From positions 124,001 to 188,000 of the forward strand of contig NZ_FOFV01000009.1 of NCBI RefSeq assembly GCF_900111005.1: a DNA stretch of 64,000 bases, in the 5' to 3' direction. The stretch is from Lentzea albida (GTDB lineage Bacteria > Actinomycetota > Actinomycetes > Mycobacteriales > Pseudonocardiaceae). How positions within the stretch are numbered: the stretch's first letter is position 1; each line of letters opens with the position of its first letter. Below are positions 42,063 through 56,431 of this stretch, in pieces. The notes under the pieces are model-generated. The model saw only the letters and a program-made list of their open reading frames with translations. It did no database searches and had not been told where the DNA came from. A program made the position numbers and the translations under genes.

Positions 42063-42989
42063 TTGAACCAGCACGACCTGTCCTGGGCGGACGCCCACCC
42101 GGGCTCCGGGCCCTTCCTGGGCGAGATCTACTCGCTGGCGTTCGTCCGCGGTGTCGCCCCGCTCGACGCCCTGCGGCGCGCCGGCGGTCTGGAGGACACG
42201 CTGGCGGACCGCACGCCGGGGGAGATCGCGGAGACGCACGACTACGACGACGGCTACCCGGAGGTGGTCTCCGCGTTCGGGCTCGGCGAGTGGGCGGTCC
42301 TCGTCCAGCCGACCGGGTTCTCGCTGACCCACGTCGTGGACGCGCTCTCCCGCGGCACCGAGGCCGTCGCGGTCCTGCGGCACGACTACGCCTCGCCGAA
42401 CTTCACCCACGCCGTGGACGGCACCGTCACGACGTGGTTCAACCTCAACTACCCGGAACAACGCGGCGGCGAGGACCCGGACCGCCTGCTGCCGCTGATG
42501 CTCGAGGCCGGGTTGGCCTACCCGGACGACGACGATGACGACGACGAGAGCTGGCGGCTGCGCTACGAGGAGCCGGTGGCCCGCGCGCTGCGGCTGACCG
42601 GCCTGATCACCGGCGTTCTGCCCACGTTCGACCAGGTCACGGCCTCGTTGCCGAGCATGCACGTCGACACCTGGTTCAGCCGCACGAAGCCGTCGAGGGG
42701 AAACAGGTCCGAGGTGGCCGCGCTCGTCGCCGAGCTGGGCGTGGGCGACACCCCGGGTCTCGCCGCCGCGCTGGCCGCAGCCGACCGGGGCGAGCCCGTC
42801 GTCGTCACCCAGGACAGCGACCTGGGCCGGCACGTGCGTGAATGGTCAACCCTCGCCCGCCGGGCGAGTTGGTCGCTCAACGACCCCGGAGCGCGGTACC
42901 GGTTGAGCGACGGAGAACGCACCCGCGGCTACCGCTTCGGCCACCTCGTCCCGGCCCTCGCCGCCGCCTTCCGATCGGACCTGGCCTGA
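42063..42989 (+). CDS. DUF6461-like protein, function unknown
   Basis: The 308-residue protein starts at a TTG preceded by GGGGGGA. It has the pattern of the DUF6461 group: LSFAF-type N-terminal strand (GEIYSLAFVRGVAPLDALRR), GEWAVLVQPTGF, TTWFNLNYPEQRGG, and an acidic run (YPDDDDDDDE, about 153-162). Such proteins are frequent and divergent in actinomycetes and no activity is known. Its stop overlaps the methyltransferase ATG by one base. Confidence 0.72.
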   Translation: MNQHDLSWADAHPGSGPFLGEIYSLAFVRGVAPLDALRRAGGLEDTLADRTPGEIAETHDYDDGYPEVVSAFGLGEWAVLVQPTGFSLTHVVDALSRGTEAVAVLRHDYASPNFTHAVDGTVTTWFNLNYPEQRGGEDPDRLLPLMLEAGLAYPDDDDDDDESWRLRYEEPVARALRLTGLITGVLPTFDQVTASLPSMHVDTWFSRTKPSRGNRSEVAALVAELGVGDTPGLAAALAAADRGEPVVVTQDSDLGRHVREWSTLARRASWSLNDPGARYRLSDGERTRGYRFGHLVPALAAAFRSDLA

Positions 42990-43810
42990 TGCGGATCCCG
43001 CTCGACGGACTGAGCCACACCGCCCTCTACACGGCCTGGGTGAGGCATCGGGAGGCCGCCGGCGCGGACCCGCTGTTCACCGACCCGCTGGCGGACTTCC
43101 TCGTCGCCGCGGCGGGCGACCACCCGGCGCTGGCCGCGTTCATCGCGCAGATGCAGGACACCTCGAGCGGCTTCCCGTCCTACCACGTGGTGCGCACCCG
43201 GTACTTCGACGACCGGATCAGGTACGCGCTGGACAACGGCGTGCGGCAGGTCGTGGCCCTCGCCGCGGGCGTGGACGGCCGCACCACCCGCCTGCCGTGC
43301 CCGCGCGACACCCGCTGGTTCGAGCTCGACCTGCCGGCCATGATCGAGTTCAAGACCGCACTGGTCGAGCAGTCCGGCCTGACTCCCACCTGTGGGCGGA
43401 TCGGGGTGGCCGCCGACCTCAGAACGGACTGGCCCACCGCCCTGCTCGCCGCCGGGTTCGACCCCCGCAGGCCCACCGCGTGGCTGGTCGAGGGCGTGCT
43501 GATGTACCTCACGCCCGACGAGGGTGACGCGCTCCTGGACGCGGTGACCGCGCTGTCCGCCCCCGGCAGCCACCTGCTGCTCGAACACCTGCAGGTGTCG
43601 ATGCTCGGCGACCGGGGCACGCGGGTGCGGGGCGGGCTGGGCAAGCACGGGGTCGTGTTCGCGGCGGCCCGTGACGACCTGGAGGACTGGCTGGGCGCGT
43701 CCGGGTGGCGGGCGGCGGTGCACGCGGGCGTGGATCCGGCGATCGGGCACGGACGGACCGTCGCGCCGGTGCCCGCGGCCTGGCTGGCTGCCGCGACGCG
43801 CGCCACCTAG
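42989..43810 (+). CDS. SAM-dependent O-methyltransferase (LCMT/PPM-like)
   Basis: The 273-residue class I methyltransferase resembles the leucine-carboxyl-methyltransferase-like family. It has HTALYTAWVRHREAAGADPL, DDRIRYALDNGVRQVVALAAGVDGR (cofactor-binding loop) and WLVEGVLMYLTPDEGDALL. Family members methylate small acids or polyketides. It overlaps the DUF6461-like gene and is followed by about 295 bases with two hairpins before the RiPP locus. Confidence 0.82.
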   Translation: MRIPLDGLSHTALYTAWVRHREAAGADPLFTDPLADFLVAAAGDHPALAAFIAQMQDTSSGFPSYHVVRTRYFDDRIRYALDNGVRQVVALAAGVDGRTTRLPCPRDTRWFELDLPAMIEFKTALVEQSGLTPTCGRIGVAADLRTDWPTALLAAGFDPRRPTAWLVEGVLMYLTPDEGDALLDAVTALSAPGSHLLLEHLQVSMLGDRGTRVRGGLGKHGVVFAAARDDLEDWLGASGWRAAVHAGVDPAIGHGRTVAPVPAAWLAAATRAT

Positions 43811-44105
43811 TTCCGTGCCGGGGCGGTGGTAGCCGCGCGGCAACAGGTCGTCGCACTTCGAGATGTCAGGGACCCGGTGCCGGTGCAGCGTCGGTGTGAC
43901 CGCCACGTGACGCGAAGCGGTCGGCTGTCGTCGTGCGGGTACCGGTCCTGGCCCGCACCCGCACGACGGCGCTGATCCGGTTCCACCCGGCACAGGTCAC
44001 CAAGCTGCCATCACGGCGTCCCCTACCTGCCGTTCGATCCGCTGTCGCCCGCCCTCCCCCCAGGCGACAGTGGAGACCACGAACGAGCGGAAGGAGGTGG
44101 ATCAG
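43811..44105. promoter_or_regulatory. Leader region of the radical-SAM peptide locus, with two hairpins
   Basis: No gene is seen in these 295 bases. Hairpin 1 pairs GTCGTGCGGGT with ACCCGCACGAC (43930-43940 with 43957-43967, 11 bp). Hairpin 2 pairs CTGTCGCC with GGCGACAG (44042-44049 with 44063-44070, 8 bp) and ends about 20 bases before the very strong AAGGAGGTGG site of the peptide gene. The first may terminate the upstream gene; the second may act in the leader. Confidence 0.45.
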
Positions 44106-44207
44106 ATGCTCAAGACCCCGGACTTCGGTGACGAGTACGGCGACCAGGAGGTGCGCTGCGTCGGCACCGGTGGCTACCACGACCTCGGCGACTACTACGG
44201 GATCTGA
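44106..44207 (+). CDS. Candidate RiPP precursor peptide (33 residues)
   Basis: This short ORF has an outstanding ribosome binding site (AAGGAGGTGG, eight bases before the ATG) and lies 31 bases before the radical SAM gene. It encodes MLKTPDFGDEYGDQEVRC and then VGTGGYHDLGDYYGI. Three aromatic-x-Asp units are visible: F7-G-D9, Y11-G-D13 and Y24-H-D26; there is one Cys (C18). Aromatic-x-Asp/Asn units are the crosslink sites used by three-residue cyclophane-forming radical SAM enzymes, so this could be the substrate of its neighbour. A GTG at 44070 in the same frame would give a 45-residue form. Confidence 0.72.
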   Translation: MLKTPDFGDEYGDQEVRCVGTGGYHDLGDYYGI

Positions 44208-44238
44208 TCCACCGCGGGTGCCGAGGGAGGTGCGGGAC

Positions 44239-45345
44239 GTGCGACTGGTGCGAGGCGAGAACGGCTGGTGGTGCATCGGCCGGTCGGCGACGGCGTTGCT
44301 GCCGGACCGGTTGGTGGAGAACGGCGATCTCACCGCGGAGGGCCGGGAACAGCTCAACGCCATGGGGATCGACGTGGTGCAGGCGCCGGACCACTACAGC
44401 CTGACCGTCGTGACGTCCACCGGCTGCAACCTCGGGTGCTCATACTGCTTCCAGAACACCCCGGACGGCAGGCGGCGCATCGCTCCCGCACGGCTCGACG
44501 CCCGCACCGTCGCGCGCTGTGTCGAGTTCACCGAGAAGAAGATGGCCGAACTGGGCGTGCGGCGGCTGGAGCTGCTCCTGTTCGGCGGTGAGCCGCTGCT
44601 CAACCCCGCCGGGTGTCTGCAGGTGCTGCGGGCGTTCGGTGCGCGGATGCCGGTCACCGCCAGCATGATCAGCAACGGCGTGCTGCTCACCCCACGTACG
44701 GCCGCACGGCTGCACGAGGCCGGGCTCGGGCACCTCCAGGTCACCCTGGACGGCGAGCGCGACCGGCACGACAGGACACGCGTGACGCGCGGGGGCAGGC
44801 CCACGTTCGACCTCATCCTGGCGAACGTGGCCTCGGCCCAGCGGCACACCGGCCTCCGCTTCACCGTGCGCGTCAACGTGACACCGGACGTCCTGCCCCA
44901 CCTCGGAACGCTCCTCGACCAGGCGGCCGCGGTGCTCGACGTCCCCGGCACGAACCTCGCGATCGCTCCCGTGCTCGACTACGGCGCCGGCGTCCCGGCA
45001 CCGGACGCACGGGCCGCGGAACAAGCGGTGCAAGCCTGCGCCAGGGCGGCGGAACTCGGGTTCCGGCTCGTCCGCCCGCGCGACGACCACTGCGACTTCT
45101 GCTCCGAGGCCGACGGACGGCTGGGCGCGGTCGTGGCACCGGACGGCACGTTGTTCAGCTGCTGGGACGCGGTCGGCGAGAACGACCTCGCCGTCGGTGA
45201 GCTCGATTCGGGCTACAGCAACGAATCCCGTGCGCGCTGGCGCCGCTGCGGCGGCGAACTCCCGCGCACACAGGCGTTCTCCGACGCACTCGACGCCGGA
45301 GTGCTCGACGTCATCCGCGCGCGCAAGGAGGTGACCCGACCATGA
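44239..45345 (+). CDS. Radical SAM peptide-maturase with SPASM/twitch-like C-terminus
   Basis: The 368-residue enzyme starts at GTG 44239, after GGGAGG. The N-terminal 50 residues (GENGWWCIGRSATALLPDRL and onward) may be a peptide-recognition region. The [4Fe-4S] motif is C63-x3-C67-x2-C70 in STGCNLGCSYC, followed by LLLFGGEPLLNP. The C-terminus has FCSEADGRLGAVVAPDGTLF and then SCWDAVGE, resembling a shortened SPASM/twitch domain with too few cysteines for two full clusters. It probably modifies the peptide encoded just upstream, or the one just downstream. Its stop overlaps the second peptide ATG (ATGA). Confidence 0.85.
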   Translation: MRLVRGENGWWCIGRSATALLPDRLVENGDLTAEGREQLNAMGIDVVQAPDHYSLTVVTSTGCNLGCSYCFQNTPDGRRRIAPARLDARTVARCVEFTEKKMAELGVRRLELLLFGGEPLLNPAGCLQVLRAFGARMPVTASMISNGVLLTPRTAARLHEAGLGHLQVTLDGERDRHDRTRVTRGGRPTFDLILANVASAQRHTGLRFTVRVNVTPDVLPHLGTLLDQAAAVLDVPGTNLAIAPVLDYGAGVPAPDARAAEQAVQACARAAELGFRLVRPRDDHCDFCSEADGRLGAVVAPDGTLFSCWDAVGENDLAVGELDSGYSNESRARWRRCGGELPRTQAFSDALDAGVLDVIRARKEVTRP

Positions 45346-45455
45346 CCGAACCCGAGCACCACGACGACGAGACGCCCTCGGCGCCGAACTTCATCGAACT
45401 GCTCGAGGCCGACGAGGAGCTGACCGGCCCCGGCCTCTGCGTTCCGTTCCGCTAG
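45342..45455 (+). CDS. Second small peptide of the radical-SAM locus (37 residues)
   Basis: This ORF begins in the ATGA that ends the radical SAM gene and reads MTEPEHHDDETPSAPNF, IELLEADEELTGPG and LCVPFR. It is acidic with a single Cys near the end, and the FIELLEADEEL helix looks like a leader-recognition segment, so LTGPGLCVPFR could be a core. It may be a second precursor, a leader partner, or a small accessory protein. The gap to the first M16 gene is 33 bases. Confidence 0.65.
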   Translation: MTEPEHHDDETPSAPNFIELLEADEELTGPGLCVPFR

Positions 45456-45488
45456 AAGTCCTCGCACGCGCACCGGAAGGAGACGGCC

Positions 45489-46793
45489 GTGCACAGAACG
45501 CACCAGCACCTGGTCCGCACTCAGCTGGCCAACGGGCTGCGGGTGTTGCTCGCACCCGACCGCACGGTCCCGGTCGTCGCCGTCGCGGTGCACTACGACG
45601 TCGGCATGCGCTCCGAACCCGAGGGCCGCACCGGGTTCGCGCACCTCTTCGAGCACCTGATGTTCCAGGGTTCGGAGCTGCTGCCGAAGCTCGACCACGC
45701 GCACTACGTGCAGGCCTCCGGCGGGGTGTTCAACGGCAGCACCCACCTCGACTACACGCAGTACCACAACGTGTTGCCCAGCAACGCCTTGGAGCGCGCG
45801 CTGTTCCTCGAAGCCGACCGGATGCGCGCGCCGAACCTCAACGCGGAGAACCTGCGCGTGCAGATCGACGTCGTGAAAGAGGAGATCCGCGCCAACGTCA
45901 CCAACAAGCCGTACGGCTGCTTTCCGTGGGTGACGCTGCCGGGAGTTCTCTTCGACAGCTTCGCGAACTCGCACGACGGTTACGGCTCGTTCGACGACCT
46001 GGACTCGGCGACCGTCGAGGACGCGCGCCAGTTCTTCGACCGCTACTACGCCCCGGCGAACGCGCTGCTGACGTTGTGCGGCGACTTCGACGCGGACGAG
46101 GCCCTCGCGATGGTGGAACGCCACTTCGGTCCGATCCCGTTCCGCCCCAGGCCTTCCCGGCCGGACTTCGCGGAACCGGAGATCACCGGCGAGCGCCGCA
46201 CGGTCAAGTACGACCCGCACGCTCCGCTGCCCGCCGTGGCCGCGGGGTGGAGGGTGCCCGACCCGATCGGCCAGTGGGACGAGTACCTGCCGCACCTGCT
46301 GCTCGCCGACGTGATGTCCGACGACGGACCCGCGTGCCGGCTGCACCGCAGGCTGGTGCGCCAGGACGGCCTCGCCACGAGCCACCGCTGCTACCTCGGC
46401 ATGCTCGGCGACCCGCTCGACACGGGCCACCCGACGGCACTCGTGTTCAGTGCCCGCCAGACGCCCGGCACGAGCTCGCAGCAGGTGCTGGACGCGATCG
46501 CCGAGGAGTTCGCGTTGGTGGCGCGGCACGGTCCGGAGGAACGCGAGCTGAACAGGATCGCGAGCCGCCTCACCACCCGGTTGCTGGTCGAGACGGACTC
46601 GGTGCTCGCGCGCACGCAGGCGCTGGCCTCGCTGGAACTCCGCCACGGCCGTGCCGAACTGCTCGGGGAGCTGCCCGCCCTGCTCACCTCGATCACGCCC
46701 GAACAGGTGGCGCGGGCGGCCGCGCGCATCACCCCCGACCGCCGGGCCGTGGTCGAACTGCTGCCCGCCTCGTACCAGGAGGAGGCAGCATGA
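45489..46793 (+). CDS. M16-family zinc peptidase, catalytic subunit
   Basis: The 434-residue peptidase has the inverted zinc motif H52-L-F-E55-H56 with a likely third ligand Glu in IDVVKEEIRAN about 75 residues later. The GTG start is preceded by AAGGAGA. It should form a heterodimer with the next product, as in the AlbE/AlbF pair of subtilosin and in mitochondrial processing peptidase. It is probably the protease that removes the leader of the small peptides. Coupled by ATGA overlap to the second M16 gene. Confidence 0.92.
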   Translation: MHRTHQHLVRTQLANGLRVLLAPDRTVPVVAVAVHYDVGMRSEPEGRTGFAHLFEHLMFQGSELLPKLDHAHYVQASGGVFNGSTHLDYTQYHNVLPSNALERALFLEADRMRAPNLNAENLRVQIDVVKEEIRANVTNKPYGCFPWVTLPGVLFDSFANSHDGYGSFDDLDSATVEDARQFFDRYYAPANALLTLCGDFDADEALAMVERHFGPIPFRPRPSRPDFAEPEITGERRTVKYDPHAPLPAVAAGWRVPDPIGQWDEYLPHLLLADVMSDDGPACRLHRRLVRQDGLATSHRCYLGMLGDPLDTGHPTALVFSARQTPGTSSQQVLDAIAEEFALVARHGPEERELNRIASRLTTRLLVETDSVLARTQALASLELRHGRAELLGELPALLTSITPEQVARAAARITPDRRAVVELLPASYQEEAA

Positions 46794-48118
46794 CGGCGAG
46801 CGTCGTTCCCGCGTTGCGGCCGTGGCCGGAGATCACCTCCCCGGACGTCACGGAAGTCCGCTGTGCCAACGGGTTGCGGCTCCTCGCGCTGCACCGGCCG
46901 GGCGCGCCGCTGGCCGAGATCCGGCTGAGCGTCCCGTTCGGTTCGATGGCGCCGGGTCACCTGGCCCGCGCGTGGCTGCTGTCGGAGACGGTGCTGGCGG
47001 GCACCGCGGCCACCGGCCGGATCGGGCTCGCGGAACGCATCGGCGAGCTGGGGGCGAGCCTGCGGGCCGAGGTCGACCACGACCGGCTGCTGTTCAGCGG
47101 CACCGTGCTGGCGGACCGGTTCGAGGACCTGCTGGCCGTGCTCGCGGAGGTCGTGCGGGAGGCGACCTACCCCGACCGGGAGGTGCTGGCCGAACGCGGG
47201 CGGCTCGCGTCGCGGCTGACGGCGGCGCGGTCGCAGGCCGCCATCCGGGCGCGGGAGATCCTGCACCGGCACCTGTACGGCGACCACCCCTACGGCGCGA
47301 GCATCCCGACCGGCGCGGAGGTCGACGCGATCTCCGCCGAGCAGCTGCGGGCACTGCACGCCGAACGGGTCGTGCCCGACCACGCGGTGCTGGTCGTCGT
47401 CGGCCTGGTCGACCCGGACCGGGCCGTCACGGCGATGCACCGCCACTTCGCGGACTGGCGGCCGGGCGGGCTCCCCGTGCCGGACCTGCCGCCACTGCCG
47501 GACGAGGCCCCCGCGGGCGCGTCCCGGCTGTTCCACCGGCCCGGCTCGGTGCAGTCGTCGATCCGGATCGGCGGGCCCGCGCTGCGCCGCGACGACCCGC
47601 TGTTCCCCGCCCTGCACCTCGCGAACCTGATCTACGGCGGGTACTTCTCGTCGCGGCTGGTGGCGAACATCCGCGAGGACAAGGGGTACACCTACACCCC
47701 GCGCAGCCGGATCATGCACAGCAGCGCGGGGTCCACGCTCGTGATCGAGGCCGACGTCGCCACCGACGTGACCGCGCCCGCGTTGCTCGAGATGTGGTAC
47801 GAGCTGGGCAGGTTGTCGACGTTGCGGCCGAGCGCCCAGGAGCTGCGCGACGTCCGCCAGTTCGCGGCCGGCAACCTCGCGATGTCGATCGCCACCAGGT
47901 CGGGCCTCGCCACGACCCTGGTGACGCTGCTGGGGGTCGGCCTCGACCTCGACTGGATCCGGCGCAGCCCCGACCTGCTCGCGGAGGTGACCGCGTCCGA
48001 CATCTACCACGTGGGAGTGCACCTGCTGGCCCCCAAACTGCTCGCGGCCGTCGTCATCGGGGACGCGACGAAGTGCGAGGAGCCGTTGCAGGCGTTCGGC
48101 CCCTGGGTGGTCGAGTAG
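46790..48118 (+). CDS. M16-family peptidase-like subunit without the zinc site
   Basis: The 442-residue protein aligns in pattern with M16 enzymes but has ARAWLLSETVLAG where HxxEH should be, so it lacks the zinc ligands. It keeps the C-terminal substrate-binding signature GGYFSSRLVANIREDKGYTY. It is therefore the expected non-catalytic partner of the preceding peptidase. A hairpin after the stop closes this unit. Confidence 0.9.
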   Translation: MTASVVPALRPWPEITSPDVTEVRCANGLRLLALHRPGAPLAEIRLSVPFGSMAPGHLARAWLLSETVLAGTAATGRIGLAERIGELGASLRAEVDHDRLLFSGTVLADRFEDLLAVLAEVVREATYPDREVLAERGRLASRLTAARSQAAIRAREILHRHLYGDHPYGASIPTGAEVDAISAEQLRALHAERVVPDHAVLVVVGLVDPDRAVTAMHRHFADWRPGGLPVPDLPPLPDEAPAGASRLFHRPGSVQSSIRIGGPALRRDDPLFPALHLANLIYGGYFSSRLVANIREDKGYTYTPRSRIMHSSAGSTLVIEADVATDVTAPALLEMWYELGRLSTLRPSAQELRDVRQFAAGNLAMSIATRSGLATTLVTLLGVGLDLDWIRRSPDLLAEVTASDIYHVGVHLLAPKLLAAVVIGDATKCEEPLQAFGPWVVE

Positions 48119-48134
48119 CCGTTCTACCTGCGCA

Positions 48135-48166
48135 AAGCCCGGTCCTGCCCCTGCGGGACCGGGCTT
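48135..48166 (+). terminator. Terminator hairpin after the M16 pair
   Basis: A perfect 11-bp stem AAGCCCGGTCC/GGACCGGGCTT (48135-48145 with 48156-48166) and a 10-base loop, followed by GTTG. It separates the radical-SAM locus from the lanthipeptide locus. Confidence 0.75.
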
Positions 48167-48281
48167 GTTGCGTGTTCCGCCCCCACACCCCGCAGCGAAT
48201 ATGGGGAGCCACTACCCATGTGACCGCGCAACTAGGTGACGCAAAGTCTCCGTAGGCGGTGGAACTGATCGGGGTGGTGGG

Positions 48282-49247
48282 ATGTCGCTGCGTGACCTCG
48301 GCTTCGACGCGGTCCAGGAGGGCGTGTACCGGAGCCTGCTCGCCGATCCGTTGCGGGACAACAGCACCCTCGCGTCGCTCACCCTCACCGACGAGTCGGC
48401 CGTGCGGAACGCGCTGGCCGGACTGCTCGCCCTCGGTGTCGTGGAGGTCGCCGCGACCGCCCCGTGCGGGTACGCGCCCGGTGACCCCGAGGTCGTGGTC
48501 GGCGAGCTGATCGAACGCCTGGAGCAGGAGACGTTGCGGCGCCAGCAGAAGATCGGCGGCACGCGCACCGAGCTGGCGGGCCTCGCGGCGGGGTTCCGGC
48601 ACGACGCGCGCACGGTCGAGGTCGAGCACATCACCGAACCCGAACGGATCCGCGAACGGCTCGCGGAGCTGTGCTTCTTCACCCGCTCCAGCGTGTACGC
48701 GGTGCAGCCGGCGCGGGCGTCGAGCGAGGCGGCCCGCGCGGAGGCGTCCCGGCTCGACAACCGCAGCCTGGGCCGCGGGGTGACGATGCGGATCATCTAC
48801 GACGAGCGGGTGCTGCGCGCCGAACGCACCCGTGCCCGGCTCGGCGAGCGCACGGCGTCCGGCGCGCAGATCCGGTTCCTGCCGGGTCCGCTCGCGCGGC
48901 TGATCCTGCTGGACGAACGGATCGCGATCGTGCCGTCCGATCCGACCGACGCGGGCTCCGGCGCGCTGGTCGTGCACCAGCCCGGCATCGTGAGCGAGCT
49001 GGTCGCCCGCTTCCGGCAGTTGTGGGACGGCGCCCAGGACTTCGCCGAACCCGCCGGCACGCCGTCCGACGACGACCGGTCCGTGCTGCGGATGCTCGCC
49101 TCCGGGCTGACCGACGAGCTCGTCGCCCGGCAGATCGGCGTGTCGGTGCGGCACCTGCGCCGCCGGATCGCGCGGCTCATGGACGAACTCGGCGCGGACA
49201 GCCGGTTCCAGGCGGGAATGGCAGCCGCGCGGCGCGGCTGGATCTGA
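48282..49247 (+). CDS. TrmB-like / LuxR-type helix-turn-helix regulator
   Basis: The 321-residue regulator has an N-terminal winged-helix-like region (about 1-65, LGFDAVQEGVYRSLLADPL), a helical linker, a PLD-like ligand region (about 110-240, RGVTMRIIYDERVLR) and a C-terminal LuxR-type HTH (about 255-315, LRMLASGLTDELVARQIGVS then RHLRRRIARLMDEL). Such regulators often accompany RiPP loci in actinomycetes. The 23-residue ORF follows 47 bases later and the lanthipeptide synthetase 313 bases later. Confidence 0.82.
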   Translation: MSLRDLGFDAVQEGVYRSLLADPLRDNSTLASLTLTDESAVRNALAGLLALGVVEVAATAPCGYAPGDPEVVVGELIERLEQETLRRQQKIGGTRTELAGLAAGFRHDARTVEVEHITEPERIRERLAELCFFTRSSVYAVQPARASSEAARAEASRLDNRSLGRGVTMRIIYDERVLRAERTRARLGERTASGAQIRFLPGPLARLILLDERIAIVPSDPTDAGSGALVVHQPGIVSELVARFRQLWDGAQDFAEPAGTPSDDDRSVLRMLASGLTDELVARQIGVSVRHLRRRIARLMDELGADSRFQAGMAAARRGWI

Positions 49248-49294
49248 GACCTCATTGCCCTGAAAACAGCAGGTGACACTGTTCAGGAGGAAAC

Positions 49295-49366
49295 ATGGTG
49301 CGCAAGGCGGGATCGAACGGGATCGGCGAGGACGACGACGTGATCGGCGCGTTCGGCTGGGACTGA
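49295..49366 (+). CDS. 23-residue ORF with a strong ribosome binding site
   Basis: This ORF has an ideal CAGGAGG five bases before its ATG and ends immediately before an intrinsic terminator, so it is probably translated. It encodes MVRKAGSNGIG and EDDDVIGAFGWD: a basic start, an acidic middle and an aromatic end. It may be a signalling peptide linked to the regulator upstream, or an unusual RiPP precursor. No family is known to me. Confidence 0.6.
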   Translation: MVRKAGSNGIGEDDDVIGAFGWD

Positions 49367-49385
49367 AAAGACCGGCGCGGACCAA

Positions 49386-49415
49386 GGGCGGGTACCCACG
49401 GGTGCCCGCCCTTTT
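49386..49415 (+). terminator. Intrinsic terminator after the 23-residue ORF
   Basis: GGGCGGGTACC and GGTGCCCGCCC (49386-49396 with 49401-49411, one G:T pair) form an 11-bp stem with a 4-base loop, followed directly by TTTT. It would make the regulator and small ORF a separate transcript from the lanthipeptide synthetase. Confidence 0.88.
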
Positions 49416-49560
49416 CGTCACCCCGCAACGGGGTCATCTTGTTGCCCGCGACCGGTCCGGAAGCTGACGCGCCACGACCTTCCGAACCCGTTGGCGGGCA
49501 AGCAGAATTGTTTCCAGAGCAAGGGAAAAGCCCGAAAGAATCCGGAGAGGGGAACGAGAA

Positions 49561-52095
49561 ATGAGCATCTCACTCGTGCACGCCGATCCGGAGTTCTACG
49601 CACCGCTCAGCCGCACGACCCGGCGTGGCACCGAGTACACCGCGACGGGCATGCCGGCGGACTGGAGCGAGCACCACCAGGACGTGTGGACGGCCTGGTA
49701 CCCGCCGCACAAGCTCGGTGGCGTCACCGACGGCTGGAAGATCCACCTATCGGCCCGCGCCGACCGCGCCCAGCACGTGCTGGACGTCGCCGCGCCGATC
49801 TTCGCGGCGCACGGCGTGGCGTTCAAGCACCTGAGCTGCTCGCTGTACTTCGTGGTGACGCACCACAAGCACGCCGAACGCAGCCAGTCGGGCAAGTTCT
49901 GCGCCGCCTACCCGCCGGACGCCGCGACCGCCGAGGCGCTCATGCGCGACCTCGCCGCCGCGTTCGACGGTGAGGAAGGTCCTTACGTGCTCAGCGATCG
50001 CCGGTTCGGCGACTCGCGGGTCGTGCACTACCGCTACGGCGCGTTCGTCGCCCGGCGCAGGCTCACCGCGCAGGGCTGGCACGAGCTGCTGGTCCTCGAC
50101 GCGGCCGGGCGGAGCGTCCCGGACGTGCGCGGCACGAGGTTCAGCACGCCCGAAGGCATCACCGACCCGTTCGCCGAGTCCTCTGTAGACGCGCCGAAAC
50201 GCGCCGGTGCTCCGGAGTTCGGCGGTGTGCGGTTCGAGAAGGCGTTGCGTCACAGCAACGGCGGCGGCGCCTACCAGGGCACCGACGTCGCCACCGGTCG
50301 CACGGTGTTCGTGAAGGAGAGCCGGGGCCACCACGGCCTGGTGAGCCCCACCAGCGCGAGCCAGGACCGGCTGCGCAACGAGTACGAGGTGCTGCAGGAG
50401 CTGCACCGCGCCGGTTCCGGCTTCGCCCCCGAACCGGTGCGGTACTTCCGCCACCTGGAGAACGAGTTCCTGGTCACCGAGTTCGTGCCGGGACGATCGC
50501 TGCGCTCGTGGTGGGTCGAGCACAACCCGATCATCTGGTCCACCGCGACCGACGACGACTTCCGCGCCTACTACGCACGGGCCGCGAAGATCGTCGACGA
50601 ACTGACCGCGCAGCTGGAACGGTTGCACGGCTTGGGTTACGCCTTCATCGACCTGAGCCCGGACAACGTGCTCGTGGACGACGAGGACCGGATCCGGCTC
50701 ATCGACTTCGAGACGGCCACCCGCCTCGGCGGGCCGCTGACGCCGATCGGCACGCCGGGGTTCTTCCCGGCCGACCCGCTGCGGTTCGCCGACGACCCGG
50801 TGCGCTACGACGACTACGCGCTCTCCTCGATCGCGCTGGCGTTGATCGCGCCGATCACCACGACGGCCGACCTGTTCCCCGGCGTGCTCGCCCACCTGAA
50901 GGCGCAGCTCGACCCGCACGGCCTGGTGCCGCGGAAGATGTGGGCGCTGGCGACGCAGGTCCGCGAGCCCGACCCCGTCCCGTCCGCGGACGAGGTCACC
51001 TCGAACCCCTGGAACTGCCTGAAGGCGTTGCGCGACGGCCTGATCACGGGCCTGCGCGGCACCGCGCACCCCGACGGTGTGGTGCCGCTCGGTCCCCGGT
51101 CCTACGCCACCAACAAGCTCGGCTTCGGCCACGGACTCGCCGGCGTCGTGCACGCGCTGCACGTGGCGGGGACGCCGTCGGAGGAGCTGCTCGACCGGCT
51201 GTGCGCCCGTGCGCTGGCGGAGGCGGACGACCTGCCTCCCGGACTCGTCGCGGGACAGGCGGGCGTGGCCCGCGTCCTCGCGGAGCACGGCAGGATCGCC
51301 GAGGCGCAGGAGCTCCTGGCCCGGGCGGACGAGCACCCGCTGCTGCACGGGTCCGCGACGCTCGGCTTCGGTTCCGCCGGCGTCGGGCTCGCCCACCTCG
51401 CGCTGTACCGGCACACCGGCGACCGCGCCCACCTGGACCGGGCCGTCCGGCACGCCGGGGAGATCCCCGGCTCACCGACCGAACTGCTCGGCCGGCACAA
51501 CGCCGCCGGACTCGTCGACGGACGGACCGGGCTCGCGTTGTTCCACCACCACCTCGGTCTGCTGACCGGGGACGAGGACCACCTCGCGCGGGGACTGGTT
51601 CTCCTGCACGAGGAACTGGACCGCGCCGAACTCTCCGAGGGCGGACTGCTGTTCGGGGTCTCGGACCGCGACCGCAGGCTGATGCCGTACCTGAGCACCG
51701 GCACCGCGGGTGTGCTGATGGCGGCGAGCCGCTACCTGGCCACGACCGGCGACGACCGCGTCGCCGCCGCGATCCCGGGCCTGCTGACGGGACTGAACTG
51801 CTCGTTCACCCACTACGGCGGCCTGTTCGACGGCATGGCGGGGCTGAGCCTCGCCCTGCACGACCACGGCCGCAGGCACGGCGACCAGGCGAGCCTGGAC
51901 CGTGCGCAGACCTTGGCACAGCGTCTCTTCCTGTACGCCGTGCCGCACGAGACCGGGACGTACGTCCCCGGTGAGCACGCGCTGCGCCTCAGCGGCGACC
52001 TGTGGTTCGGGTCCGCCGGGGTGCTGACGGTGCTCGCCGGAGTGCTGGACGACCACCCGGACCCCCTGTTCGCCCTCGACGAAGTCGAGCGGTAG
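49561..52095 (+). CDS. Class III lanthipeptide synthetase (LanKC)
   Basis: The 844-residue synthetase has an N-terminal phospho-Ser/Thr lyase-like region (about 1-200), a Ser/Thr kinase domain (about 215-480: K252 in VFVKES, catalytic D364-L-S-P-D-N369, D382-F-E), and a LanC-like cyclase (about 510-844). The Cys-Cys-His zinc ligands of class I/II/IV cyclases are not seen, which fits class III. It would phosphorylate and dehydrate Ser/Thr in the two small peptides downstream and form lanthionine or labionin rings. The ATG has GAGAGGGG upstream. Confidence 0.93.
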   Translation: MSISLVHADPEFYAPLSRTTRRGTEYTATGMPADWSEHHQDVWTAWYPPHKLGGVTDGWKIHLSARADRAQHVLDVAAPIFAAHGVAFKHLSCSLYFVVTHHKHAERSQSGKFCAAYPPDAATAEALMRDLAAAFDGEEGPYVLSDRRFGDSRVVHYRYGAFVARRRLTAQGWHELLVLDAAGRSVPDVRGTRFSTPEGITDPFAESSVDAPKRAGAPEFGGVRFEKALRHSNGGGAYQGTDVATGRTVFVKESRGHHGLVSPTSASQDRLRNEYEVLQELHRAGSGFAPEPVRYFRHLENEFLVTEFVPGRSLRSWWVEHNPIIWSTATDDDFRAYYARAAKIVDELTAQLERLHGLGYAFIDLSPDNVLVDDEDRIRLIDFETATRLGGPLTPIGTPGFFPADPLRFADDPVRYDDYALSSIALALIAPITTTADLFPGVLAHLKAQLDPHGLVPRKMWALATQVREPDPVPSADEVTSNPWNCLKALRDGLITGLRGTAHPDGVVPLGPRSYATNKLGFGHGLAGVVHALHVAGTPSEELLDRLCARALAEADDLPPGLVAGQAGVARVLAEHGRIAEAQELLARADEHPLLHGSATLGFGSAGVGLAHLALYRHTGDRAHLDRAVRHAGEIPGSPTELLGRHNAAGLVDGRTGLALFHHHLGLLTGDEDHLARGLVLLHEELDRAELSEGGLLFGVSDRDRRLMPYLSTGTAGVLMAASRYLATTGDDRVAAAIPGLLTGLNCSFTHYGGLFDGMAGLSLALHDHGRRHGDQASLDRAQTLAQRLFLYAVPHETGTYVPGEHALRLSGDLWFGSAGVLTVLAGVLDDHPDPLFALDEVER

Positions 52096-52120
52096 CAAGA
52101 AAACCCTTGAGGAGGCAGTC

Positions 52121-52234
52121 ATGTCCGACGTCAACGAGCTCCAGAACCTCGCCGACGACGAGAACACCGAGGCCGGCTACACCAACCCGGTCGAGGTCGA
52201 GCCCGGCAAGAGCACCGCCAGCATCGTCTGCTGA
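52121..52234 (+). CDS. Class III lanthipeptide precursor, copy 1
   Basis: The 37-residue precursor starts 25 bases after the synthetase stop, with AGGAGG upstream. The leader has the class III recognition helix ELQNL (residues 6-10). The C-terminal core GKSTASIVC gives S31-x2-S34-x2-C37, close to the labionin pattern. It is nearly identical to the next copy (Val4 here, Ile4 there). Confidence 0.9.
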   Translation: MSDVNELQNLADDENTEAGYTNPVEVEPGKSTASIVC

Positions 52235-52296
52235 CCTGGCCCCACCCGCTCTTCCCGCACCACAGCAAGCACTTCACCTCAACGAAGGAGACGGAC

Positions 52297-52410
52297 ATGT
52301 CCGACATCAACGAGCTCCAGAACCTCGCCGACGACGAGAACACCGAGGCCGGCTACACCAACCCGGTCGAGGTCGAGCCGGGCAAGAGCACCGCCAGCAT
52401 CGTCTGCTGA
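52297..52410 (+). CDS. Class III lanthipeptide precursor, copy 2
   Basis: This second 37-residue precursor differs from the first only at residue 4 (Ile for Val), while the 62 bases between the two are unrelated to the bases before copy 1. The core ends STASIVC as in copy 1. GAAGGAG lies upstream of the ATG. Two copies would raise precursor dose for one final product, since the cores are identical. Confidence 0.9.
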   Translation: MSDINELQNLADDENTEAGYTNPVEVEPGKSTASIVC

Positions 52411-52440
52411 CCTGACCTTCCACAGGTCACGCCGTGCCAC

Positions 52441-52477
52441 GGGGCGGGGGCGGGGGAACTCCCCCGTTCTCCGCCCC
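52441..52477 (+). terminator. Hairpin between precursor genes and exporter
   Basis: GGGGCGG pairs with CCGCCCC, and inside it CGGGGG pairs with CCCCCG around AACT. It may partly stop transcription after the precursor genes, giving more precursor than exporter mRNA. Confidence 0.65.
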
Positions 52478-52527
52478 GAAGCTCTTTTCCGCCCCAGAGG
52501 ACTTCTCCGCGTCGCAGGAGGACCAGC

Positions 52528-53766
52528 GTGAGCCGCGATTTCCGCTACTACTGGTCGGCCGAGGTGAGCTCCACCTTCGGTTCGACGTTCACCACGATGG
52601 CGATCGCCACCCTCGGCGTCATCGTGTTCAACGCGTCGCCGAGCGAGCTCGGCTTCGTCAGCGCGGCCGCGATCCTGCCCGCCTGCGTCTTCGGCCTGCT
52701 GGCCGGTGTCCTCGGCGACCGCCTGCGCCGACCGCGCCGCGTGCTGATCGGCTGCAACGCCGCGGCGGCCTCGCTGGTGCTCGTCGTCGCGCTCGGCATC
52801 GGCACCGGTGCCGCCACGATCTGGTGGCTCGCCGCGCTGTGCTTCGTGCTCGGCTGCATCGCGACCGTCGTCGAGACCGTCTACTTCACGCACCTGCGCG
52901 GCCTCGTGCCGCCGGACCGGCTGACCGCGGGCCGCGCCCGGTTGCAGACAGGCGAGTACGGCGCCCGCACAGCCGGCCAGGCGCTCGCGGGTGTGCTGAT
53001 CTCCGTGCTGGGCGGTGCCTTCGCGCTCGTGGTCGACGCGCTGACCTACCTCGTCAGCCTCGTCCTGCTGACCCGCATCACCGCACCCGACCAGGGCGCC
53101 CCGCCCGCCGACGCGCCGCGGTCGCTGCACCGCGAGATCGGCGAGGGTTTCCGCCAGGTGGCGAAGTACCCGTTCCTGCGCACGTTCGGCGTGTTCACGG
53201 CGGTACGTTCGATGAGCGTCGGCGCGCTCGCGACCATCGTCGCGCCGTTCCTGCTGCGCGACCTGAACGTGCCGCTGGAGCTCTACGGCGCGTTGTTCGC
53301 GGTCAGCGGCCTGGCGGGGCTCGTCGGCTCGCTGGCGGCCGGACGCCTCGCCGAGCGCATGAGCCTGCACTCGCTCGCGGTGCTGGGAAGCGCGGGCACC
53401 GTCGGTGCCGCGTTCGTGCTGCCGTCGGCGGGCGGGCCGTTGCCCGTCGCCGTCACGATCGCCGTGCTGGGCCTGGCGCTGCCGACCGTGTTCGGCGCGA
53501 TCGCCAACGTGGGCCTCAGCGGCGCGCTGACGGAGCTGGTGCCGGAGAACGCGCTCGGCCGCGCCATCGCGAGTCTGCGCACGATCGCCACGACGGCCCA
53601 GATCCTCGGCGCGCTGGGCGGCGGACTGCTCGCCGACGCGCTCGGCCTGCGGCCCACGGCGTGGGTGTGCGCGGGCCTAGCCCTGCTCGGCTGCGTGCCC
53701 CTGCTGCGGGCCGTGGTGGTCACCCGCAGGCCCGCGCCGGTCGAGGAACCGGCGGTGCTCGTATGA
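52528..53766 (+). CDS. MFS exporter of the lanthipeptide locus
   Basis: The 412-residue protein has about twelve hydrophobic helices and the MFS loop GVLGDRLRRPRRVLIG (motif A-like) after the second helix; the N-terminus reads SRDFRYYWSAEVSSTFG, typical of drug-exporter-type MFS. It probably exports the peptide, or protects the cell. The GTG start follows CAGGAGG. Its stop overlaps the next ATG (ATGA). Confidence 0.87.
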   Translation: MSRDFRYYWSAEVSSTFGSTFTTMAIATLGVIVFNASPSELGFVSAAAILPACVFGLLAGVLGDRLRRPRRVLIGCNAAAASLVLVVALGIGTGAATIWWLAALCFVLGCIATVVETVYFTHLRGLVPPDRLTAGRARLQTGEYGARTAGQALAGVLISVLGGAFALVVDALTYLVSLVLLTRITAPDQGAPPADAPRSLHREIGEGFRQVAKYPFLRTFGVFTAVRSMSVGALATIVAPFLLRDLNVPLELYGALFAVSGLAGLVGSLAAGRLAERMSLHSLAVLGSAGTVGAAFVLPSAGGPLPVAVTIAVLGLALPTVFGAIANVGLSGALTELVPENALGRAIASLRTIATTAQILGALGGGLLADALGLRPTAWVCAGLALLGCVPLLRAVVVTRRPAPVEEPAVLV

Positions 53767-55481
53767 CCGCCGTGCTCGCGATCATCGGCGCCGGCCCGCG
53801 CGGCACCGGTCTGCTGGAACGGCTGGCGGCCAACGCCTCCCTGCTCCCGGCGGGATGTGAGATCCACGTGGTCGACCCGCACCCGGCGGGAGCGGGCCGC
53901 GTGTGGCGCCCCGACCAGTCCCCGCTGATGCTGATGAACTCGCGCGCGGGCGACGTCACGATGTTCACCGACGACAGCGTCCGCTGCGCCGGCCCGATCT
54001 CCCCGGGCCCGACGCTCGCCGAGTGGTCCGGGCTGGACGACGACGTCTTCCCGACCCGCCGGCAGGGTGGCGCCTACCTGAGGTGGTGCTTCGACCGAGC
54101 CGTACGCGCTTTCCCGCGCGGTGTCAGGGTTTTCGTGCACCAGACCAACGCCGTGGCCCTCTCGGACGGCCCGCGCCAGACCGTCGCCCTGGCGAACGGC
54201 ACGCACGTGGTCGCCGACGTGGTCGTGCTGGCGCAGGGGAACGTGGGCGGTCACCGCACCCCGGAACAACTGGCGCACCAGGACTTCGCCGCCCGCACCG
54301 GTGGCACGTACCTGCCCCCGTCGTGCCCCGGCGACGAGGACCTCGACCGCCTGCCCGCGGGCGAGGCGGTCCTGGTGTCCGGCATGGGCCTGGCGTTCGT
54401 GGACCTGGTCGTCCTGCTGACGCAGGGCCGGGGCGGCCGCTTCACCCGCGGCCGCGACGGCTCGCTGACCTACCACCCGAGCGGCCGGGAACCGGTGCTG
54501 CACGCGGGATCCCGCCGAGGCGTCCCCTACCTGCCGAAGCCGGTGCTGCCCCCGCTGGCCGACCGGGCTCCCCGCTTCTTCACCCCGGCGCTCCTCGCCC
54601 GCGCCACCACGCCGGGCGAACTGGTAGGCGCCGCGTGCCGCGAACTCGTCTGGGCGCACTACCGCGAACTCTTCGCCGCGCACACCGCCCGGACCCGCAT
54701 GCCGTGGGACGCCTTCGCGTCGGAGTTCGCCGCGCTGCCGATCACCGACCCGGCACTGGAGGTCCTGGTCGCGCAGGCCGTTCCCGACCAGGCCGACCGC
54801 GCGGACACGAGCTTCCTGCGCGCCCCGCTCACCCGCTCGTTCCCGGACCAGGCGGCGCTGAACACGTGGATGCGCGACCACCTGCGCCACGCGGTGGCCC
54901 GCGCCACCGACCCCCGTCACAGCGCGCACGCCGCGGTCCTGCACGGACTCCTGACCGTGAGCGAGGTGCTCGAACGGGCGGCGCCCACCCCGTCGACCGC
55001 GCGCACGGCCGCGGTCCTGTCGCGCTTCGCCGCCTACCTGGGGTCCGGTCCTCCCCCACACCGCTTGGAGCAACTCCAAGCCCTGACGCGCGCAGGCCTG
55101 CTCCACTTCCTGGGAGCAGGGCTGCGCGTCACCCGCACCGACGCCTTCACCGCGCACACGGACTCCCTGCCGTTCGCGGTCAGGGCGAGGCACTTCGTCG
55201 AGGCCCGCCTGCCCGACCCCGACGCCCGCACACACCCGTTGCTCCTCCCGCTGGCGCACAACAGGACCCGCGTGCCGGTGGACCCGGACACGTTCCACGT
55301 CCTCGACGACACGGGCGACGCACATCCGCGCCGCCTGGCGCTGGGCCTGTTCGCCGGTGGAGGGGCGCTGGGCGCGTTCTCCCGTCCCGGACGCAACGCC
55401 CCGTTCTTCCGCCAGAACGACGACACCGCGCGCCGCGTCCTCGCCGAACTGAACGCCAGGACCCCGGCGCTCACGCCCTGA
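53763..55481 (+). CDS. FAD/NAD(P)-binding protein of the lanthipeptide locus
   Basis: The 572-residue protein has an N-terminal dinucleotide-binding motif AIIGAGPRGTGLLERLA and the following VVDPHPAGAGRVW, as in the NAD_binding_9 / FAD-NAD(P)-binding group. A second GMGLAFVDLVVLL segment lies near residue 205. The family includes putative N-hydroxylases and monooxygenase-like proteins. It is coupled to the MFS gene, so it may oxidise the peptide, but its reaction is not known. The C-terminal half is less typical. Confidence 0.78.
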   Translation: MTAVLAIIGAGPRGTGLLERLAANASLLPAGCEIHVVDPHPAGAGRVWRPDQSPLMLMNSRAGDVTMFTDDSVRCAGPISPGPTLAEWSGLDDDVFPTRRQGGAYLRWCFDRAVRAFPRGVRVFVHQTNAVALSDGPRQTVALANGTHVVADVVVLAQGNVGGHRTPEQLAHQDFAARTGGTYLPPSCPGDEDLDRLPAGEAVLVSGMGLAFVDLVVLLTQGRGGRFTRGRDGSLTYHPSGREPVLHAGSRRGVPYLPKPVLPPLADRAPRFFTPALLARATTPGELVGAACRELVWAHYRELFAAHTARTRMPWDAFASEFAALPITDPALEVLVAQAVPDQADRADTSFLRAPLTRSFPDQAALNTWMRDHLRHAVARATDPRHSAHAAVLHGLLTVSEVLERAAPTPSTARTAAVLSRFAAYLGSGPPPHRLEQLQALTRAGLLHFLGAGLRVTRTDAFTAHTDSLPFAVRARHFVEARLPDPDARTHPLLLPLAHNRTRVPVDPDTFHVLDDTGDAHPRRLALGLFAGGGALGAFSRPGRNAPFFRQNDDTARRVLAELNARTPALTP

Positions 55482-55495
55482 CACCGCTGCGGGAA

Positions 55496-55699
55496 CTACA
55501 CCGGAGCGATGTCCACGACCAGGTTCGCCATCACCATGTCGACGCTCAGATCCCTGCGGATCAAGGGGATCCACAGGGTGTTCGTGCGCGGATCGGCGAT
55601 CTCGGGTCCGATCGCGACCGCGCGCCGGAACGCCACCTCGGCGAACGGCGAGGGGGCGAAGTACGTGACGACGGCACCTCTCTCGAGGTGCCCGGTCAC
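55496..55699 (-). CDS. Small hypothetical protein
   Basis: The 67-residue ORF starts 24 bases after the ANTAR gene stop, on the same strand. It encodes a mostly beta-like chain with FAPSPFAEVAFRRAVAIG, ADPRTNTLWIPLIRRD and MVMANLVVDIAPV. Codon use looks coding, but the ribosome site is weak and no family is recognised. Confidence 0.42.
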   Translation of the reverse strand: MTGHLERGAVVTYFAPSPFAEVAFRRAVAIGPEIADPRTNTLWIPLIRRDLSVDMVMANLVVDIAPV

Positions 55700-55723
55700 G
55701 GATCTCGTGCCCGCAGCGGGGAC

Positions 55724-56431
55724 TCAGTGCTCGTCGAGTTCCGAGTGACGGGCGGTGAGGGTGGTCGCGAGGTCGAGCAGTCTCACGTTGAGGTTCTGCG
55801 ACGTCCGGCGGAGCAGGTCGAACGCCTCGTCGGCGGTGATGCCCTGCCGGCTCATCAGGATGCCCTTGGCCTGACCGATGACGTCGCGGCTGTCGATGGC
55901 CTGCCGGAACTGGGCCCGCCGCAGGTCCGCCAGCTCGGTGGCGCGCGCGTGCGCCAGCGCCAGCGAGCCGTGCGTCGCGAGCAGCAGGGCCGTGTGGCGG
56001 TCCGCGTGGTCGAGACCGTCGACGCGGCGCGAGTAGACGTTGAGGGCGCCGGAGAGCTGGTCCGGTCCCGCGGCGGAGAACAGCGCGCTCGACAGGACCG
56101 CGTGGAAGCCGTACCCGCGGGTGGCGGCGGCGAACTCGGGCCAGCGGGTCTCGGTCCCCAGGTCGTCGCTCGCCACGTAGCCGGGACCGTCGCCGCGGGC
56201 CGCGTCGAGGCACGGGCCCCGGCCCGAGTGGTACTGCACCTGGTCCAGTTCGGCCGCCACCTCGTCGGTCTGGACCGGGGTGTGGAACGCGCCGCCGGGC
56301 GCCAGGACCGTCACGCTGACCATGTCGGCTCCCACCACCACCGCACCGGCGGCGTCGGCGACCTGCTGGAGGGCCTCGGCCACGCTGGAGGTGTGGAGCA
56401 GCCTGCGGATCAGCTCCTCGAAGTGGTCCAC
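55724..56431 (-). CDS. GAF/ANTAR-domain regulator
   Basis: The 235-residue protein has a GAF domain (about 15-150) and a C-terminal ANTAR domain (about 165-225: QFRQAIDSRDVIGQAKGILM and ITADEAFDLLRRTSQ). ANTAR proteins bind two-hairpin RNA and prevent termination. I choose GTG 56431 because it gives the usual length; the open frame runs further upstream into the AraC gene. The two genes probably form one unit. Confidence 0.87.
   Translation of the reverse strand: MDHFEELIRRLLHTSSVAEALQQVADAAGAVVVGADMVSVTVLAPGGAFHTPVQTDEVAAELDQVQYHSGRGPCLDAARGDGPGYVASDDLGTETRWPEFAAATRGYGFHAVLSSALFSAAGPDQLSGALNVYSRRVDGLDHADRHTALLLATHGSLALAHARATELADLRRAQFRQAIDSRDVIGQAKGILMSRQGITADEAFDLLRRTSQNLNVRLLDLATTLTARHSELDEH

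Follow-up and report, generated by a model that had tools for sequence, protein, structure and literature searches.

A probable composite RiPP cluster joining a radical SAM half and a class III lanthipeptide half in Lentzea albida

Gene content and distribution of the cluster

The window analyzed here, a 64,000-nucleotide stretch of the Lentzea albida genome, holds what is probably a composite RiPP cluster, in which a radical SAM (rSAM) half is joined to a class III lanthipeptide half. The conserved gene block extends from 44106 to 55481, with every feature described below on the forward strand, and comprises three small conserved peptide genes, the rSAM gene, a pair of M16 protease genes, a regulator gene, a LanKC gene, two to four LanA genes, and genes for an MFS exporter and an FAD/NAD(P)-binding protein. 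It is kept in all six genomes that carry the close rSAM clade among the 390 Pseudonocardiaceae genomes searched, and searches for that clade, for M16A above 900 bits and for LanKC at E<=1e-230 each returned the identical six. Peptides 1, 2 and 3 and LanA were found in every one of them; in G009 the halves are found at separate contig ends (the start of C16 and the end of C15), which we counted as one split block. A sequence-only reading of this DNA had proposed a free-standing rSAM/M16 system at 44042 to 48118. Its coordinates are correct as given but end before the conserved unit does, and a free-standing system is not borne out, as the class III module (LanKC, LanA, MFS and FAD proteins) is linked to the rSAM/M16 unit in all six genomes. 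No close LanKC without rSAM and M16A was found among the 390 genomes. A close-relative search found no relative in viral contigs, and matches on 17 plasmids all fell below 60% identity and 80% coverage. In the titles and abstract openings searched, which cover few subscription journals, we found no description of an rSAM, LanKC and M16 cluster or of the VVAH precursors discussed below.

The rSAM half opens with peptide 1 (MLKTPDFGDEYGDQEVRCVGTGGYHDLGDYYGI; 44106 to 44207), a 33-residue candidate rSAM substrate preceded by the ribosome site GGAAGGAGGTG. The rSAM gene follows at 44239 to 45345 with a GTG start, and its stop overlaps, as ATGA, the start of the 37-residue peptide 2 (MTEPEHHDDETPSAPNFIELLEADEELTGPGLCVPFR; 45342 to 45455). 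Both small ORFs, which the sequence-only reading had already picked out with these signals, recur at the same position in 6/6 genomes, with one invariant Cys each and, in peptide 2, an invariant C-terminal end, T-x-P-G-L-C-V-P-F-R. Their pN/pS over all pairs, drawn like that of peptide 3 from five to six short sequences, is 0.39 and 0.43, respectively; together with the same-place recurrence, this indicates that peptides 1 and 2 are real beyond chance. Between the window and its counterpart in L004, peptide 1 has a dN/dS of 1.14. The two peptides show no detectable likeness to each other, and neither contains the Cys-X3-Asp/Glu spacing. Thirty-three bases past peptide 2, the M16 genes begin with M16A (45489 to 46793), the catalytic subunit, followed by the noncatalytic partner M16B (46790 to 48118). 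They lie within the rSAM operon, upstream of the regulator (48282 to 49247) and LanKC. The regulator, kept in 6/6, is TrmB-like or LuxR-type by weak Pfam matches below cut-off. Next comes peptide 3 (MVRKAGSNGIGEDDDVIGAFGWD; 49295 to 49366; 23 residues), with an AGGAGG site, an IGAFGWD end invariant in 6/6 and a pN/pS of 0.46 over five sequences. A hairpin 3' of peptide 3 is visible by eye in the sequence and the alignments and is missing from the output of a terminator scan of 43700 to 56000, which found 2 terminators against 2.4 expected.

The lanthipeptide half begins with LanKC (49561 to 52095), a class III lanthionine synthetase scoring 744.7 bits on NF038151 against a cut-off of 575. LanA1 (MSDVNELQNLADDENTEAGYTNPVEVEPGKSTASIVC; 52121 to 52234) and LanA2 (52297 to 52410), which differ by one residue, carry an S-x2-S-x2-C core, and this core, KSTASIVC or a close variant, is found in two to four copies in 6/6 genomes. 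On NCBIfam class III precursor models LanA scores 14.8 bits (LanA1) against a cut-off of 30 and 13.2 against 22; since the models do not cover this LanA, it is LanKC and the core motif that carry the class III assignment. The MFS exporter (52528 to 53766) scores 144 bits on TIGR00900, below the cut-off of 319.6; it has matches in all six genomes, and its gene is in two pieces in A. bartoniae. The FAD/NAD(P)-binding protein (53763 to 55481; PF13454, 134 bits in the enclosing ORF), also kept in 6/6, has no NCBIfam match.

A 38-base element stands ahead of both halves. The copy at 43995 to 44032, about 110 bases ahead of the start of peptide 1, reads GGTCACC-N2-GCTGCC-N8-GTCC-N4-CCTG and is present in 6/6 upstream regions, where it and the ribosome site are the exceptions in mostly diverged sequence. 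The copy upstream of LanKC (49432 to 49469; GGTCATC-N2-GTTGCC-N8-GTCC-N4-GCTG) is clear in 5/6 genomes and diverged in G009. A pattern drawn from both sites is circular; the ranks from separate profiles are not. With a profile built from the sites upstream of peptide 1, the LanKC site comes second of 127926 positions, directly after the peptide 1 site (10.6 versus -3.2 for the third). A profile of the LanKC upstream sites in turn places the peptide 1 site second of 127926 (3.3 versus 0.0, where third place goes to that LanKC site read on the opposite strand). This common element suggests that the two halves are under joint control.

The modifying enzymes and their sister loci

The rSAM protein (368 residues; PF04055) contains the C63-x3-C67-x2-C70 triad and the shortened SPASM-like end noted in the sequence-only reading. 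An alignment of 12 rSAMs, the window protein included, shows no variation at cysteines 63, 67, 70, 285, 288, 308 and 337. A full SPASM set has more than four cysteines; C285, C288, C308 and C337 would be enough for one auxiliary cluster. The 25 best NCBIfam matches, out of 67, all stay below their cut-offs, and the PapB model NF047865 gives 86.4 bits against 340. An AF2 model (pLDDT 88.7) has CteB as its closest solved fold, with SkfB also among the closest; viewed for an RRE domain, residues 1 to 42 form three strands and one helix only. The protein is most similar to peptide maturases, not to a family with nonpeptide substrates, and the locus combines an rSAM core, auxiliary cysteines and an adjacent conserved small ORF, as is broadly typical of rSAM RiPP maturases. 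Our analysis delimits a peptide-maturase-like rSAM family for which no curated cut-off is reached among those best matches. The rSAM match of L005, one of the six, is split over two frames and was left out of the alignment and tree. Two weak matches (L031 and L032, from G219 and G010) were dropped from the tree and alignment A1 and also from the sister census.

The family occurs in 42/394 Streptomycetaceae and 13/390 Pseudonocardiaceae genomes searched. The Streptomycetaceae sister proteins are 37 to 46% identical to the window protein where measured; three of 44 Streptomycetaceae places (G992, G819 and G923) lie outside the sister data set. Sister loci resemble the cluster described here in the rSAM family, in an MFS gene within 6 kb of the rSAM gene (45/48) and, in many, in acidic Cys peptides. 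A small Cys-containing ORF lies upstream of the rSAM gene in 28/48 and none is evident in the other 20, so that conserved small ORFs accompany rSAM homologues in all of the window clade and in over half of the sister loci. Sister loci differ from the cluster in having VVAH...TPWC or VICGVYDKE precursors, which are unrelated by profile, and an S9-type protease (a prolyl-oligopeptidase within 6 kb in 26/48) or none seen. No M16 match lies near the sister rSAMs within the stretch fetched (0/48), so the association of rSAM with M16 is not obligate. LanKC lies within 10 kb in three of the 32 genomes tested out of the 42 from Streptomycetaceae. HMM searches run both ways against decoys and shuffles led us to reject, at their sensitivity, any homology between peptide 1 or 2 and the sister-clade precursors tested. 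A likeness between peptide 2 and 'PEVIAHAEESEEDPGFCV' that had been spotted by eye was not borne out.

The M16 proteins form a coupled pair with HxxEH on the first only, as had been read from the sequence. M16A (PF00675/PF05193) carries H52LFEH56, and its copies above 900 bits occur only in the six cassette genomes of 390; M16B (Pfam M16) lacks HxxEH and has R295-x6-Y302. This division, with HxxEH on one subunit and R295/Y302 on its partner, is that of a heteromeric M16B protease. A separate M16 pair in the same genome is only 55%/45% identical to the cluster's own, dedicated pair.

Candidate substrates and a model for the cluster

The gene content suggests that radical-type and lanthipeptide-type modified peptides are produced together. 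In the model we favor on balance, with modest confidence, both halves would be switched on together. The rSAM enzyme would abstract hydrogen from one or both of peptides 1 and 2 and link the carbon to the one invariant Cys as a thioether (-2 Da). LanKC would phosphorylate, dehydrate and cyclize S-T-A-S-I-V-C in LanA, the M16 heteromer would take the leaders off LanA and probably off peptide 2 too, and the MFS protein would export the products. Peptide 3 might serve as a signal or leader peptide. The pairing of each enzyme with its peptide is what we infer here; the co-occurrence of all genes fits any enzyme-peptide pairing and tells none apart.

The linkage of LanKC and LanA in all six genomes makes LanA a second, well-precedented candidate substrate of the M16 pair, which may cut LanA in addition to the rSAM peptides or in their place. 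If it served the LanA leader only, the rSAM peptides would be processed by a different protease or by none, with the halves as neighbors under one regulator; we consider this arrangement possible but doubtful. The available text of PMC8960859 and PMC10885120 describes removal of class III lanthipeptide leaders by M16B heteromers, and that of PMC8960859 describes the trimmed precursors as having one S-x2-S-x2-5-C motif, as LanA has here; the sister rSAM loci, 26/48 with prolyl-oligopeptidase and none with a nearby M16 match, point the same way. Against this stand the position of the M16 genes inside the rSAM operon and the confinement of the close LanKC genes found in the 390 genomes to those with rSAM and M16A. 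In addition, in the available part of PMC8960859 an actinobacterial M16B pair, from Catenulispora, left AciA uncut, the sole class III precursor tried with it.

That the pair serves the rSAM peptides only, as the sequence-only reading supposed and as AlbE/AlbF do for subtilosin, we regard as unlikely. The gene order and the AlbF/AlbE precedent (PMC12731061, as far as its available text goes) favor it; the invariable linkage of LanKC and LanA and the sister rSAM loci lacking M16 argue against it.

It is similarly improbable, in our estimation, that LanKC also acts on peptide 2, forming a methyllanthionine from the invariant Thr to the Cys of T-x-P-G-L-C, and that the rSAM enzyme acts on peptide 1 only. 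Neither this Thr nor this Cys varies among the six genomes, and in G009 peptide 2 aligns with LanA over N....L.EDEETT.PG with a score of 56, reached by 6/200000 shuffles. This is, however, one good pair among 40 peptide pairs compared; the other nine pairs of peptide 2 with LanA give p values of 0.02 to 0.56, the LanA profile misses peptide 2, and hhalign yields no confident match. A general relation of peptide 2 to LanA, clear in G009 only, was therefore rejected. Finally, the gene overlap and the short gaps to the next genes would suit peptides 1 and 2 being coupling or attenuation leader peptides and not precursors. We consider this very unlikely: they are conserved at the residue level, most of all toward the C terminus, L023 has a gap of three bases, and no Rfam element was found between 43000 and 53000.

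Under our preferred model, the cluster is a compact case of genetically linked and probably coregulated radical and lanthionine chemistry with a common candidate protease, and it makes it possible to test directly if a single M16 heteromer can act for two RiPP classes. We see only a small chance that it makes one multicomponent product, an rSAM-cross-linked peptide plus a class III lanthipeptide, under one operator and with one M16 heteromer reading a common leader element. If so, two chemically unrelated thioether machineries, radical and ionic, would have coevolved on one protease and possibly even on peptide 2.

Relation to known systems

The subtilosin A system combines the rSAM enzyme AlbA with an M16 pair, one subunit of which is catalytic, beside a small Cys peptide. 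The cluster resembles it in all three respects, AlbA being likened by description and not by sequence, and differs in having one Cys per peptide, two peptides that are not detectably alike and a full class III module attached. AlbF/AlbE take part in subtilosin maturation, as the available text of PMC12731061 states. The paenithopeptin and bacinapeptin systems with PttP1/PttP2-type M16B proteases (as described in the available text of PMC8960859) share with the cluster LanKC, a LanA with one S-x2-S-x2-C and HxxEH on one subunit, a likeness of motifs and genes, leaders aside; unlike them, the cluster is actinobacterial and adds an rSAM enzyme and three extra conserved peptides. PapB cross-links Cys-X3-Asp by a thioether, according to the available text of PMC9413430. 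Relative to the PapB/freyrasin ranthipeptides, the window rSAM scores 86 bits on the PapB model, far under the cut-off of 340, and the motif is absent from both of its neighboring peptides, 1 and 2, whereas the neighboring clade in the tree has Cys-X3-Asp in 15 of 21 precursor units.

The composite gene cluster and its conservation

The sequence-only reading had described a peptide 1 ORF (33 residues, 44106-44207), a radical SAM enzyme (rSAM; 44239-45345, Pfam Radical_SAM), a peptide 2 ORF in an ATGA overlap (37 residues, 45342-45455) and a coupled pair of M16 genes (45489-46793 and 46790-48118), and all of these are present. The M16 genes overlap by four bases and both products have both M16 domains in Pfam, while the sequence check bore out that only the first carries HxxEH. 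These genes do not make up the complete unit, since the block runs on through a regulator, a peptide 3, a class III lanthionine synthetase (LanKC), two lanthipeptide precursors (LanA), an MFS exporter and an FAD/NAD(P) protein. LanKC scores 744.7 bits against NCBIfam NF038151 (cut-off, 575), and each LanA has 37 residues with KSTASIVC at its end. Peptide 3 (MVRKAGSNGIGEDDDVIGAFGWD; 23 residues) lies between the regulator and LanKC (49295-49420, including a hairpin, rich in G+C and carrying a run of T, that we spotted by eye 3' of it). Peptides 1 and 2 have no Pfam or NCBIfam match. The component parts of the cluster are of known kinds; our literature search (titles and abstract starts, mostly without subscription journals) found no description of a cluster combining rSAM, LanKC and M16.

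rSAM matches at E<=1e-20 occur in 15 of 390 Pseudonocardiaceae genomes: six form a close clade (at least 62% identity, own genome counted; named members, Lentzea cavernae and Amycolatopsis bartoniae), seven have 37-46% identity and two are weaker. The two small ORFs beside the rSAM proved to be conserved, with peptides 1 and 2 at the same positions in all six close genomes and the ribosome site of peptide 1 kept across them. Their C-terminal ends are the most conserved parts (VRCxGxxG[YF]HxLGDYxGI and TxPGLCVPFR, respectively). Taken across all pairs, peptides 1 and 2 have pN/pS values of 0.39 and 0.43, respectively; for the window against the A. bartoniae locus L004 alone, dN/dS of peptide 1 is 1.14. 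All six genomes also have two to four LanA copies and the invariant IGAFGWD end of peptide 3. Among the 390 genomes, LanKC at E<=1e-230 and the catalytic M16 subunit at >900 bits are each found in precisely these six; the next M16 match reaches 576 bits, and the second match in the own genome is part of a distinct M16 pair, whose members are 55% and 45% identical to those of the cassette. Thus, with rSAM, M16, LanKC, the peptides and LanA shared by the same six genomes, 44106-55481 is one conserved composite cluster. In genome G009, the two halves stand on different contigs: contig C16 opens with the rSAM half, and C15 closes with the LanKC half, led by the regulator. We take this as a single block split by the contig boundary.

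Some relatives show interrupted matches. The L. cavernae rSAM (L005) falls into two tblastn pieces in two frames, with a break at ~8798-8807 that is either an error or real decay. In A. bartoniae, the MFS gene matches in two pieces ~0.8 kb apart (L036, ~14387-15198), as does LanKC ~230 bases apart (L004, ~14700-14932). Directly upstream of the cluster (42063-43810) lie two genes, one encoding a DUF6461 protein and the other a methyltransferase of LCM type (223.6 bits to TIGR00027); among the five relatives, these are matched only in L005.

A shared element before both halves

A 38-base sequence is found ~110 bases 5' of peptide 1 (43995-44032) in all six close genomes and ~130 bases 5' of LanKC (49432-49469) in five, being diverged in G009. 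When 127926 positions (both strands) are scored with a profile built from the peptide 1 sites alone, the LanKC site of the window ranks second, at 10.6 versus -3.2 for the third. In the reverse profile, built from the LanKC sites, the peptide 1 site comes second (3.3) and the third position (0.0) is the LanKC site on the opposite strand, which hints at an inverted repeat. The element is the best evidence for joint control of the two halves, which it suggests, and the regulator encoded between them is the obvious candidate to act through it.

Proposed modification and leader removal

The three core cysteines of the rSAM and four further ones are invariant in an alignment of 12 sequences. Because of these four, the shortened C-terminal end could have room for one auxiliary cluster. 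Among the best 25 of 67 NCBIfam matches, all fall below cut-off, the top one being TIGR04280 (98.5 versus 400); the PapB model gives 86.4 bits (cut-off, 340). The AlphaFold2 model (pLDDT 88.7) has CteB, anSME, ChlB and SkfB as its nearest solved folds. In a midpoint-rooted tree of 53 rows, the window clade is a single group paired with a clade named here for its VICGVYD precursor units (support, 100/99). PapB is described as cross-linking by thioether at a Cys-X3-Asp spacing (PMC9413430). This spacing occurs in 15 of 21 VICGVYD units, whereas peptides 1 and 2 are without it. Given that neighboring clade, a Cys thioether is the favored product, and the rSAM would act on peptide 1, peptide 2 or both, a pairing that we propose. 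Profiles detected no relation of peptides 1 and 2 to the sister-clade precursors.

LanKC would act on LanA, a step well supported by its family. The earlier proposal that the M16 pair cuts the rSAM peptide retains its precedent in subtilosin maturation, in which M16 heteromers take part (PMC12731061). It had left out LanA as a second candidate substrate: M16 heteromers also remove class III leaders (PMC8960859; review, PMC10885120), so that both halves have a precedent for such a protease. Counting against a class III leader role is one actinobacterial M16B pair, reported in PMC8960859, that left the precursor AciA uncut. In G009, N....L.EDEETT.PG is found in both peptide 2 and LanA (6 of 200000 shuffles equally good) and could be a common leader or cut site; nine other pairs compared are all weak. 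Weighing the precedents for both halves and the G009 motif against AciA and the weak pairs, we give most weight to an M16 pair that would be shared by, or have dual use for, the LanA and rSAM halves, with the rSAM modifying peptide 1 and/or 2.

Sister rSAM loci

Beyond the family of the window, rSAM homologues occur in 42 of 394 Streptomycetaceae genomes; sampling 396 genomes from the phylum added one at E<=1e-50. Our census of sister loci covered 48 (seven from Pseudonocardiaceae and 41 from Streptomycetaceae, the latter from 44 places). An MFS gene lies within 6 kb of the rSAM in 45. Over the same distance, 26 loci have a co-oriented prolyl-oligopeptidase-like gene. LanKC is present in two, and the stretches fetched around the 48 rSAM genes contain no M16 match. 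Small Cys-containing ORFs precede the rSAM in 28 loci and include tandem VVAHS...TPWC units, EKF...VICGVYDKE units and others. None is evident in the remaining 20, nor in the 12 of these that were reinspected. Ten loci of one sister subclade (L108, L109, L111, L112, L114, L115, L117, L121, L141 and L144) have instead, upstream of the rSAM, a gene for a protein of 214-250 amino acids. Tandem VVAHS...WC precursors stand upstream of the rSAM in six Streptomycetaceae loci (L129, L128, L126, L123, L122 and L110), with up to ten units within one ORF in L129, an MFS gene alongside and frequently a prolyl-oligopeptidase too. These putative precursors are a large RiPP-like family without assignment; the two scanned (L110 and L122) have no meaningful NCBIfam match.

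Of the 42 Streptomycetaceae genomes with the sister rSAM, 32 were surveyed for LanKC, giving 60 matches at E<=1e-100, some of them parts of one gene. Three of the 32 (G812, G882 and G802, the last with two) have LanKC on the same strand as the sister rSAM and no more than 10 kb away, against ~0.16 expected in all by a hand estimate that assumes even spacing, although such clusters spread unevenly. The window clade therefore seems not to be the only one with rSAM and LanKC as neighbors. Two of these three genomes fall in the VICGVYD clade, and the LanKC genes of loci L120 and L138 exceed the cut-off (912 and 810 bits). These two Streptomycetaceae loci each contain a second rSAM (L120, 3797-4972; L138, 2038-3111; both on the minus strand), whose best match is the YydG peptide epimerase at 27 and 39 bits, respectively, versus a cut-off of 300.
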